64,000 nt of DNA, from the NCBI RefSeq assembly GCF_003614185.1, contig NZ_KZ987724.1, positions 664,679 through 728,678 of the forward strand. Reading direction: 5' to 3'. Each line of letters begins with the position of its first letter. Within the stretch, counting starts at the first letter, position 1. Positions 1,963 through 49,782 of this stretch are shown here, in pieces. Under the pieces are notes generated by a model. It saw nothing but the letters and a program-made list of their open reading frames with translations, ran no database searches and was not told the origin of the DNA. Both the position numbers and the translations under genes were made by a program. The stretch is from Paenibacillus aceti (GTDB lineage: Bacteria > Bacillota > Bacilli > Paenibacillales > Paenibacillaceae).

Positions 1963-2013
1963 AATTTAAGTGATTCTATCGGCAATTGTAATAGTTAGGC
2001 CTTTCCAGCTTCT

Positions 2014-2194
2014 AAGTGCAAATATGCAACTATATCGGTGCTTTTCTCGCTCTACCTGAGATATAACTGCTTTTATACAACTATCCGGACGGATTTTTCC
2101 GCAAACGAGGCTTTGGTCTGGAAATAGTTGTATTTACGCAGTTATTTCTGATTTCAGGGTTATTTTCCGAAAAATAAGTGTATTTTAGCAGCTA
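2014..2194. repeat. Mirrored palindrome array, dialect i, copy 1
   Basis: Four related ~20-bp units lie at 2014-2033, 2063-2084, 2123-2145 and 2173-2194. The first two are in one orientation and the last two are inverted. The central pair (ATAACTGC..TACAACTAT and ATAGTTGTA..GCAGTTAT) can form a long stem with an internal loop. Copies at 13834 and 17887 share the units and part of the spacers. The array fills most of the gap between the YheO-like gene and tetR; no gene is seen in 1963-2353. Confidence 0.75.
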
Positions 2195-2280
2195 CTAGCG
2201 ACCCAGCCCCCATAGGTGAGTAAACTTGTGCCTTACCATTATCGTTCTGGTATTCTTGTTCGAAGGGTAAGAAAAAGTGG

Positions 2281-13818: not shown

Positions 13819-13833
13819 GGGGGGAGGAGATAT

Positions 13834-14015
13834 AAGTGCATATATGCAACTAAATATTCCGTTTATCCCCTCAATAGGAAATGTAAGTGCCGTTGTACAA
13901 CTATTCGGACGATTTTCTACTTAATCGAGATTAGGTCGGGAAACAGTTGCATTTTCGCATCTATTTTCTGATCTCAAGCCGTTTTCCAGCGGAATAAGTG
14001 TATTTTTGCAACTAA
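13834..14015. repeat. Mirrored palindrome array, dialect i, copy 2
   Basis: Four units (ATAAGTGCATATATGCAACTA, AAGTGCCGTTGTACAACTAT, ACAGTTGCATTTTCGCATCT, AATAAGTGTATTTTTGCAAC) in mirrored order between two convergent genes. The spacers keep the TCGGAC..GGTCGGGAAA arms seen in the other copies. Confidence 0.75.
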
Positions 14016-14065
14016 GCGTAGTCGCAGTTCGGAGCAGCAGTCGCCAGAATTAGCTGGCAGTATGA

Positions 14066-17856: not shown

Positions 17857-17886
17857 GCTTTTCAATTTTTGATCATGGTAGATGCT

Positions 17887-18163
17887 AGTTGCAGAAATAC
17901 ACTTATTTTCTGGGAATTCACCTTGAAATAGAATATAACTGCGTAAATACAACTATTTCCTGACCAAAGTCTCGTTTTATAAAAAAATCCGTGCGAATAG
18001 TTGTATAAGCGCAGTTATACCTCAGGTGGCGAGTAAAAAGTTCCGATATAGTTGCATTTTCGCACTTATGTAGCTGGCTTGCGCTGGTTAATTGCAGAAG
18101 ATACACTTATTTCCTTTAGAAACCTATTAATCCCTTCTTGTAAATGTATTTTGTGCACTTAAT
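17887..18163. repeat. Mirrored palindrome array, dialect i, copy 3 (expanded)
   Basis: The unit AGTTGCAGAAATACACTTAT (17887-17906) is followed by ATAACTGC..TACAACTAT, the mirrored AATAGTTGTA..GCAGTTAT, AGTTGCATTTTCGCACTTAT and two further degenerate units (near 18095 and 18140). The order and the TCCTGACCAAAGTCTCGTTT spacer are the inverse of copy 1, so the whole element lies in the opposite orientation. Confidence 0.75.
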
Positions 18164-20507: not shown

Positions 20508-20712
20508 CAAAACTGCAAAGATGCAAAAATGCAGGCTTTTTGCCTAAAATCACCTGTTCTCCGTAAATTCCTGCAGATATGCAGGTATTTCGATCGTTTT
20601 CCGTAGAATCGGGCTCGTCCGAAAGAAATACCTGCATTTTAGCAGGAATTTACTGCCACGGGTCGAAATATTTAGAAAATTCCTGCATAATCGCAGGCAT
20701 TTCGGTAAACGC
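20508..20712. repeat. Mirrored palindrome array, dialect ii, copy 1
   Basis: Four CCTGCA..GCAGG units. The central two are perfect mirror images: AAATTCCTGC (20565-20574) and GCAGGTATTTC (20581-20591) pair with GAAATACCTGC (20625-20635) and GCAGGAATTT (20642-20651). Outer units lie near 20514-20535 and 20675-20703. Confidence 0.8.
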
Positions 20713-22982: not shown

Positions 22983-23000
22983 TCGGAGTAAAAGGGAAAA

Positions 23001-23276
23001 GGGGCTGTCTTAGAAGTCGATCTTCGACTTGGAGACGCCCCTTTTGCGTGTCCAAAAATGTGTACATCCCCATATTCTGCGGATCACTCGGACATTATTG
23101 TCCGTTAGCGTTGATGCTGTGGCACCCTGCCCGTGTAACGGACAATGATGTCCATTACACGGGAAATTGTCGCGAAAAATTGCATTTTTCGCTTCTAAGG
23201 GTCAAAAGTGTCCGTTAGAGGAGCGTAGTCGTTATTTTCATGCTCTAACGGACATTTCTGACCGCTGGACGGCCCC
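23001..23276. repeat. Dispersed 276-bp element, dialect iii, copy A (begins with terminator)
   Basis: It begins with a strong hairpin (GGGGC.. AAGTCG/CGACTT ..GCCCC, TTTT; 23001-23045) that can end the acetyltransferase transcript. GGACATTATTGTCC, the long stem CCCGTGTAA/TTACACGGG enclosing GGACA/TGTCC (23130-23163), and TGTCCGTTAGAG/CTCTAACGGACA follow. A close full-length copy lies at 43879 and the first ~100 bp recur at 26297. Confidence 0.85.
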
Positions 23277-23307
23277 TTTTTTCATGCCTTACTATCGTGC
23301 AAACTCG

Positions 23308-23330
23308 AAAACTGCAAATATGCAGGCTTT
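23308..23330. repeat. Single dialect ii palindrome unit
   Basis: AAAACTGCAAATATGCAGGC followed by TTT, matching the outer units of the arrays at 20508 and 43668. It sits just beyond the stop of the AraC gene. Confidence 0.6.
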
Positions 23331-23356
23331 CCAAGCTATCGGCACAGGGTGCCTGC

Positions 23357-43618: not shown

Positions 43619-43667
43619 TCGAGCGCCAGATCAATTGGCTCGGCGCGTTTGGATCACGTGGCCCGAT

Positions 43668-43860
43668 AATTCCTGCAAAAATGCAGCTTTTTGCCCGTGG
43701 TGAGCGGGTGAAATAGGAAATTCCTGCAGAAATGCAGGCTTTTCATAAAATGGAGCTCGATTCTGGCTGAAAGTGACTAAAAGCCTGCATATTAGCAGGA
43801 ATTTCATAAAAATAGGCGGTTTGGTGCTCAAAAGCCTGCATATTTGCATCCTTTGGGCTC
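43668..43860. repeat. Mirrored palindrome array, dialect ii, copy 2
   Basis: AAATTCCTGC (43718-43727) and GCAGGCTTTT (43734-43743) pair perfectly with AAAAGCCTGC (43779-43788) and GCAGGAATTT (43795-43804). Outer units at 43668-43693 and 43827-43850 also mirror each other. It lies directly before the dialect iii element in the gap between convergent genes. Confidence 0.82.
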
Positions 43861-43878: not shown

Positions 43879-44155
43879 GGGGCTGTCTCAAAAGTCGAGT
43901 TTCCGACTTGAAAGGCGCCCCTTTTGCGTGCCCTAAAATGTGAACATCCCCCTGTTCTGGCCGGATCACTCGGACACGGACATCATTGTCCGTTAGCGTT
44001 GATCCTGTGGCATCCTTTCCCTTGTAACGGACAATGATGTCCATTACAAGGGGATTTGTCGCGAGAAATTGCATTTTGTGCTTCTAAGGGTCAAAAGTGT
44101 CCGTTAGAAGAGCGTAGTTGTTGTTTTCATGCTCTAACGGTCATTTTTGACCGCT
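43879..44155. repeat. Dispersed element, dialect iii, copy C
   Basis: A full-length copy of the element at 23001: terminator hairpin (43879-43927), GGACATCATTGTCC, the stem CCCTTGTAA/TTACAAGGG around GGACA/TGTCC (44019-44052), then TGTCCGTTAGA and CTCTAACGG. The hairpin can terminate the exporter transcript. With the preceding array it fills most of the 645-bp gap 43619-44263, in which no gene is seen. Confidence 0.85.
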
Positions 44156-44263
44156 TGTCAGTGGAAAGTCCTGGCTCGTTCCGTCGGTTCTCCTTGCGGG
44201 GGCTAGAGAAGGTTCATACTGAGTTTGGGATTGTGGCTTTGGCCCACAGAAAAGTTACCCCTA

Positions 44264-49004: not shown

Positions 49005-49709
49005 CCACCCGTCCAACGGGTGGTTTGCACTTGGGGTATAACCCCCTGTTGCCAAACTGCGCCTAAAGACGCTAGCCTGACCACAAATCTGTTCAGGCTC
49101 AGTGTAATTTGTCACTTTCACTAACCAGTTAAACTGGTTTATTTCTTTTTGCTCCTGTTACTGCTAAACGGATCTTCGTACTCTTTTACACTCAACTTAT
49201 CTATTGCTTGGTCATGTGCTTCTTGTTCACGAATGTATTTTGCTACGGTTGCTTCATTTAGGCCCACTGTACTTACATAATAGCCTTCTGCCCAAAATTT
49301 TCGATTCCCATATTTATACTTTAGTTGCGCGTGCTTTTCAAAGATCATTAGCGAACTTTTCCCCTTCAGATATCCCATGAATGTGGACACGGCTATCTTT
49401 GGGGGGATCGCTACCAGCATGTGTACATGATCTGGCATCATATGACCTTCCAGGATGTCCACTCCCTTATACTTACATAAACGTTTGAAAATTTCGATTA
49501 AGTCTTTCCTCACTTGATTATAGATCTCTTTCCGTCTATACTTCGGGGTGAACACAATGTGGTATTTGCACATCCACTTCGTGTGAGCTAGACTATAGCT
49601 CTTGTTTGCCATCTAAGACCATTCCTTTCAATTGAGCCTGAACATCTCAATTCTATCGGGATGGTCTTATTGGTCAAACCCTCGATCCCTCCACCCGCAT
49701 AGCGGGTGG
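49005..49709 (-). mobile_element. IS200/IS605-family insertion sequence (tnpA only)
   Basis: A single-gene element bounded by two related subterminal hairpins: CCACCCG/CGGGTGG at 49005-49023 and CCACCCGC/GCGGGTGG at 49691-49709. Another pair (GTTCAGGCTC near 49092 and GAGCCTGAAC near 49635) lies inside. As in IS200, there are no terminal inverted repeats and no tnpB. Exact ends are uncertain by several bases. It sits between genes and interrupts no frame that I can recognise. Confidence 0.8.
49139..49612 (-). CDS. tnpA: IS200-type Y1 transposase TnpA
   Basis: A 157-residue HUH transposase. The metal-binding HUH motif is in MPDHVHMLVAI (about 59-69), and the catalytic Tyr probably lies in YYVSTVGLNEATVAKYI (about 113). 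KYHIVFTPKYRRKEIY is the usual N-terminal stretch. Length and motifs look intact, so the element may be active. AAGGAA precedes ATG 49612. Confidence 0.93.
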   Translation of the reverse strand: MANKSYSLAHTKWMCKYHIVFTPKYRRKEIYNQVRKDLIEIFKRLCKYKGVDILEGHMMPDHVHMLVAIPPKIAVSTFMGYLKGKSSLMIFEKHAQLKYKYGNRKFWAEGYYVSTVGLNEATVAKYIREQEAHDQAIDKLSVKEYEDPFSSNRSKKK

Positions 49710-49760: not shown

Positions 49761-49782
49761 AAACCTGCATGCCTGCAGGTTT
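49761..49782 (-). terminator. Terminator after J-like protein gene
   Basis: AAACCTGCA (49761-49769) pairs with TGCAGGTTT (49774-49782); the minus strand continues into a T run. The core resembles a dialect ii unit. Confidence 0.75.

Follow-up and report, generated by a model that had tools for sequence, protein, structure and literature searches.

Palindrome arrays at fixed spacing in Paenibacillus aceti and a predicted DUF559-like nuclease family as their candidate partner

Seven arrays of short palindromes lie in the window, which is the whole 64,000-nucleotide stretch of Paenibacillus aceti DNA that was analyzed (Table 1). They belong to three dialects, A, B, and C, with nearly equal spacing and with the signatures CCTGCA..TGCAGG, GGACA..TGTCC, and TARNTGYA..TRCANYTA, respectively. 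The 190-nt element consists of four palindromes of 16–24 bp in the order →→←←, with centers about 51, 61, and 51 bp apart, and because of this order the 190-bp element as a whole has a dyad. Dialects A and C are related along their whole length, as the C profile matches A elements with E down to about 1e-6.

Table 1 Arrays and an array fragment in the window (feature, position, strand, and remarks)
Dialect A array (A1, noted earlier)	20510..20708	+	four palindromes, centers near 20527, 20577, 20638, 20689
Dialect A array (A2, noted earlier)	43661..43860	-	orientation opposite to A1
Dialect B array (B1)	23083..23270	+	GGACA..TGTCC; spacing 50-60-50
Dialect B array (B2)	43969..44159	+	GGACA..TGTCC; spacing 51-60-50
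Dialect C array (C1)	2006..2201	+	TARNTGYA..TRCANYTA; spacing 51-61-50
Dialect C array (C2)	13822..14028	+	full C pattern in 3/4 units
Dialect C array (C3)	17879..18084	+	spacing 50-62-51
Dialect A element fragment	23300..23332	+	degenerate A remnants between the corresponding genes of G003 and G008

The two A arrays were the subject of the original prediction, which placed them at 20508 and 43668. They are found there and head a list of ten inverted repeats in the window, with arms of 34 nt (85% complementary) and 30 nt (87%), and they are related copies rather than unrelated sequences, as a single profile matches both at full length. Their plan was described as two central units that are exact mirror images. 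The plan is real and beyond chance, but it comprises four palindromes at fixed spacing, not two; the quoted arms are correct, but the mirroring is inexact in the mismatched 6-nt loops. The accompanying statements that the arrays are not a simple terminator and that no named element has such a plan both stand, and Rfam gives no match within the window at gathering score.

Spacing was measured on 28 own-genome A elements, that is, 31 full-length elements from part of the genome minus three without a unit set. Units 2 and 3 are 61 bp apart in all 28, and the outer distances are 50 or 51 bp, when the unit finder allowed 60–62 and 49–52 bp, respectively. The spacer between units 2 and 3 is gap-free in the alignment of these elements, though weakly conserved in sequence. 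In other genomes the middle distance is 59–63 bp in 52 of 52 A elements (53 minus L154; finder windows of 56–65). In a survey of 80 loci (1.7 Mb, nearly all Paenibacillaceae), the nearest similar palindrome lies at 51 bp in 22 of 119 places and at the runner-up distance of 42 bp in 9, while shuffled sequence yields 10 places for all distances together. Arrays of other species have up to 12 units and different sequences. We infer that 51 and 61 bp correspond to 5 and 6 helical turns at 10.2 bp per turn.

The right end of dialect A is sharp, and its left end is weakly conserved for some further bases. Incidentally, shortened A elements (L040:2026-2089 and L030:2079-2147) resemble deletions between units, for example with unit 1 fused to the spacer between units 3 and 4. 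The own-genome DNA also contains stretches read as N (L022, about 1478-1590; L031, about 362-640).

Genome-wide, the + strand has 224 occurrences of the pattern CCTGCA-n4..6-GCAGG, compared with 6 of a reversed control pattern. The dialect A sequence model gives 154 own-genome matches with both strands counted, and 150 of these fall into 84 distinct places, a lower bound with 150 of 2211 first-look candidates scored. Across the order, dialect A is present in 74 of 296 genomes (E<=1e-6) under strict filters with eight candidates scored per genome, so that some negatives may be misses.

By simple ORF calls, A elements are intergenic, with an ORF of at least 80 aa crossing the element in some rows. 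Their gene contexts (n = 32, the same simple calls) are ++ in 16, +- in 6, -- in 5, and -+ in 5. Sense bias is absent among the 21 co-directional contexts (10 same and 11 opposite by hand count). The convergent contexts, 6 of 32, are not enriched, and a terminator-type placement 3′ of genes was not found. No consistent target-site duplication appears among 28 dialect A elements, and no polymorphic array site within one species was found.

Compensatory stem change was the core of the original prediction, being read from the two window copies. It fails within the own genome: in 28 elements, pairing between the right arm of unit 2 and the left arm of unit 3 is 4.93 of 7 pairs, compared with 4.89 when shuffled (p = 0.40). 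Of the 16 arm pairs tested, 2L-2R and 3L-1R give p = 0.004. A small vocabulary of arm words can give the two-copy example. Across genomes, on the other hand, the palindrome arms do co-vary. When 28 genomes are represented by one element each, pairing within units exceeds all 4000 shuffles (z 4.2) and that between units 2 and 3 gives p = 0.0045, with no pairing signal for the unit pairs 1:2, 3:4, and 1:4. Use of all 52 elements weakens the signal within units (p = 0.022) and gives p = 0.0027 for units 2 and 3. With genome G038 removed, the pair 3L-2R falls to p = 0.06; the 11 elements of this genome, taken by themselves, pair within units as well as shuffles or less well. Compensatory change thus exists and keeps the units palindromic overall, which a dyad-symmetric DNA site fits as well as an RNA fold or hairpin.

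The sites were compared with 71–75 kb from each of three relatives, G003, G008, and G031, at 75–80% DNA identity. The relatives lack all seven window arrays at the corresponding sites. Both flanks align for C2, A1, B1, A2, and B2, and only the right flank for C1 and C3. At the A2/B2 site, the three relatives have a gap of 75–95 bp with a terminator-like hairpin. In these 71–75 kb, the B and C profiles have no match, and the A profile has only two, both degenerate remnants. The remnants, in G003 and G008, have the same two neighboring genes as the A fragment found at 23300 in the window, and dialect A therefore probably predates their split.

A screen for recurrent neighbors of A elements covered 397 proteins and gave four clusters found in at least three genomes. 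Two large clusters (sensor-like and ABC ATPase families) and an MFS cluster were set aside as partners. The partner gene encodes a product of about 225 aa, and lies beside A elements in three genera. In 13 aligned members, the D and E of a D..ExK motif are kept in all and the K in 12. Among 49 readable motifs from 68 sequences, K is kept in 43 and replaced by H or Q in 6. The A-type protein passes the gathering score of DUF559 (Pfam PF04480) with 22.9 bits against 20.6; the C-type protein scores 15.8, below the cut-off, and the B-type paralog (L363) has no match. Twelve of the 13 aligned members match DUF559 at E<=0.1, the best at 2e-6. Matches of the C-terminal part to helix-turn-helix models are weak. 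From these profile matches, the partner looks like a protein with a predicted DUF559/PD-(D/E)XK nuclease-like N-terminal region followed by a C-terminal (winged) helix-turn-helix. DUF559 itself we take to be a relative of the Vsr-type PD-(D/E)XK nucleases.

Of the 296 genomes of the order, 217 encode the protein family at E<=1e-10. Among 398 genomes sampled from the phylum, six do, five of them in the organism's own taxonomic family. The sixth is G452, a 1.6-Mb genome from another family of the phylum, and its gene (L397) is the sole one outside the own family in that sample; it may have come by horizontal transfer, or its contig may be misplaced. As many as 11 divergent paralogs occur in some genomes (L116, L319, and similar), where as many as 11 dialects might therefore be present together.

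Carriage of arrays by phages or plasmids was considered and rejected, as the phage and plasmid collections contain no match to the one dialect A element used as query, and no relative of the A-type protein turned up among the phages. In the plasmid collection the protein has one relative, on a 2.7-Mb Paenibacillus cellulosilyticus record. In viral contigs, the A pattern, which is too loose for this use, picks up at least 120 stretches with four weak profile matches (E 0.0009–0.005), and the B pattern picks up one single-palindrome match without a profile match.

In the own genome there are three partner paralogs, each adjoining arrays of one dialect. An A array lies 0.4 kb from the 3′ end of the A-type gene (L332), and the B-type gene (L363) ends inside the last palindrome of the adjoining B array (L363:1426-1450). 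The C-type gene (L362) has C-type arrays on both sides. Dialects were assigned by half-site counts rather than by the unit finder, which mis-centered some C and L362 units; the counts are 17 A, 0 B, and 0 C at L332, 15 B, 0 A, and 0 C at L363, and, on the two sides of L362, 8 and 6 C, 0 and 2 A, and 0 B. The window C profile does not reach E 0.01 at L362, as loops there are one base longer.

When the closest homologs of the A-type protein are taken, 27 of 30 loci have an A-profile match within 1.5 kb, or 24 of 27 without the three discovery loci. The protein family is present in all 74 A-positive genomes and in 143 of the 222 A-negative ones, and 79 genomes lack both. Of the 74 A-positive genomes, 36 have the A-type protein at E<=1e-100, a cut picked post hoc with the A-negative genomes G044 and G259 at about 1e-99, whereas none of the 222 A-negative genomes has it (p = 6e-26). 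A cut of E<=1e-80 gives 60 of 74 and 48 of 222; all association figures given here, above, and below ignore kinship.

Twelve further genomes, picked for holding other dialects, each have 2 to 11 family genes, which says little alone because the family is common. There, an array is present at 20 of the 30 family-gene loci examined (out of 61 gene places), compared with 22 of 540 background 3-kb tiles. In two of these genomes the gene locus carries the very dialect known from the other locus, with 20 and 21 of 22 bases matching; in the remaining ones, arrays at gene loci are of other dialects (best 8–16 of 22). Altogether, arrays adjoin 39 of 62 gene loci, 30 on the 3′ side and 10 on the 5′ side, with a few doubtful cases (L378, L357, and L333 among them). 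Similarity between proteins is correlated with similarity between units in Mantel tests ignoring kinship (rho 0.28, p = 0.004 for the 39 loci; rho 0.32, p = 0.003 for 35 loci, with four left out).

The A-type gene was predicted in advance to be present in G016 and G029, which have many exact A units (186 and 170), and absent in G003, G008, and G031, which have 19, 30, and 27. Stop-free A-type copies (64% and 68%) are present in G016 and G029 with A elements adjoining, on both sides in G029. In G003 only paralogs of 28–30% are found and the A-type gene is absent. In G008 an A-type copy of 80% has an in-frame stop at codon 170 of 223, and in G031 the copy is split by a non-matching stretch with two stops; each broken copy still adjoins an A element. 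A C-profile match lies beside the C-type paralog (53%) of G008. Thus, all five genomes turned out as predicted. Within the genus, and for a non-random choice of six genomes, the A-type gene is intact in three unit-rich genomes and broken (two) or missing (one) in three unit-poor genomes. The exact-unit count registers one arm spelling, and G013, G015, and G062 have low counts yet carry the A-type gene and model matches.

The fixed spacing, the pairing of dialects with paralogs, their co-occurrence, the breakage or absence of the gene in array-poor relatives, and the lineage-specific sites are direct observations. Alongside them, we consider it probable that the arrays are non-autonomous dispersed elements and, at the same time, the cognate DNA targets of the DUF559/PD-(D/E)XK-like, helix-turn-helix protein family, with one paralog per dialect. 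A dimer of the protein would bind each dyad of 20–24 bp. Dyads 5 or 6 turns apart would lie on one helix face, so that four dimers could assemble in the order →→←← into a symmetric complex. The nuclease would then nick or cut at the array, and repair or re-ligation could copy the array into other intergenic sites, as has been proposed for RAYT and REP. Once the gene dies, its arrays would decay.

The main rival supposes stationary sites: the protein, which may have ceased to be a nuclease, would be a DNA-binding organizer or regulator, and selection would keep the arrays in place as its binding sites. Spacing conserved over diverged spacers speaks for this, and the helix-turn-helix end of the protein and the substituted K in 6 of 49 motifs point the same way. 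Against it, all seven window arrays are missing at the corresponding sites of three relatives at 75–80% DNA identity; arrays also occur at many unrelated places without sense bias, and some relatives have lost the gene or carry a broken copy. We regard this explanation as rather unlikely. Still less probable is an element acting in RNA, with transcribed hairpins that terminate, attenuate, or stabilize messages. The original prediction favored selection on an RNA fold or cruciform, and the compensatory arm changes across genomes speak for an RNA element; some dialect A units also resemble two-way terminators. Against it, sense bias, enrichment between convergent genes, and Rfam matches in the window are all absent, the claimed pairing is lacking in 28 own copies, and unit 3 often forms just three pairs. 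The dyad symmetry of the whole element and a co-varying gene of DNA-binding or nuclease type likewise count against it, and an RNA role for the arrays is not favored.

Two further explanations are both very improbable in our judgment. Were the arrays conventional MITEs, they would derive from an ordinary DDE transposon by internal deletion, with the nuclease gene as a bystander. Dialect B fits this to some extent, as the repeat around it, about 450 bp long, has GGGGCTGTCTCAAAAGT-like ends by eye, but dialect A stops at the outer palindrome arms without target duplication, and the nuclease gene tracks the dialect in many genomes. If the system instead served defense or self-recognition, the nuclease would attack incoming DNA, and the arrays would label or shield the chromosome. 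Such a role is compatible with fast divergence and with a PD-(D/E)XK-like protein that has numerous cognate sites. However, PADLOC has no convincing match to the partner protein (the best, SoFic at E = 0.002, covers the last third of the profile), and the phage collection holds no relative.

The larger repeat of dialect B (window 23000-23290 and 43880-44240; L036, L040, and L044) begins by eye with GGGGCTGTCTCAAAAGTCGA..CGACTT, and some copies have an inverted-repeat-like end, GTTGGACAGCCCC, also by eye. It may be a MITE carrying the array, which suggests a separate mover for dialect B.

The system to which the arrays and their putative nuclease compare is that of REP, BIME, and REPIN sequences with RAYT (TnpA-REP), as described in PMC2817692, PMC6006769, and PMC3733652. 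In both cases, short intergenic palindromes occur at high copy, grouped in regular order, with several families per genome, and a single-copy gene adjoins its own repeats, co-varies with them, and is present where they are abundant. The enzymes differ, as RAYT is a Y1 (HUH) tyrosine transposase and the enzyme here is DUF559/PD-(D/E)XK-like with a helix-turn-helix. So does the layout, as REPs are single or paired with spacers of 20–100 bp, whereas here four dyads are phased (51-61-51) or run on at 51 bp. REP hairpins carry a GTAG/GTGG or CGTC tag at the foot; the feet here are AAA or TA(A/G) by eye, with GTAG/CGTC not seen. The array system is therefore not a member of the REP/RAYT family, its partner gene not being Y1, though it would work like one.

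A RAYT as driver was rejected, the own genome having 14 Y1_Tnp matches, all of 157 aa and of one score. The Y1_Tnp gene in the window (49139-49612), presumably IS200-like by its size and the one of the 14 whose position was compared with the arrays, sits 5 kb from the nearest array. Incidentally, a lone CCTGCATGCCTGCAGG palindrome lies at 49764, just upstream of this gene.

The partner shares the D..ExK motif with DUF559 proteins, and differs from them in the added C-terminal helix-turn-helix and in the arrays adjoining its gene. TnsA of Tn7 has a PD-(D/E)XK nuclease domain followed by a winged helix, and the partner is predicted to have the same domain order. For four partner proteins, the matches to Pfam at E<=1 include no TnsA model. 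The open-access literature searched gave no report of the arrays or of DUF559 with palindromic repeats. The passages on repeats in the Paenibacillus vortex genome paper (PMC3012674) tally tandem and inverted repeats without describing them.

By analogy, the pair of array and nuclease looks like a counterpart of REP/RAYT with an unrelated enzyme. With moderate confidence, we see in it an independently evolved class of repeat and nuclease, nearly confined to Paenibacillales, in which a DUF559-type nuclease with a helix-turn-helix reads helically phased four-dyad arrays by a paralog-specific arm code, and dialects fill genomes and turn over with gain, divergence, and death of the nuclease.

So far, the standing example of a nuclease gene that co-evolves with a bacterial repeat has been REP/RAYT. 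If an unrelated enzyme has entered into the same kind of partnership, such pairings of repeat and nuclease arise repeatedly, and the second case would supply a partner gene for many unexplained intergenic repeats of Paenibacillaceae. The phasing by 5 and 6 turns makes a testable prediction on the complex, and several paralog–dialect pairs per genome with readable half-sites would be a natural series for working out a protein–DNA recognition code.
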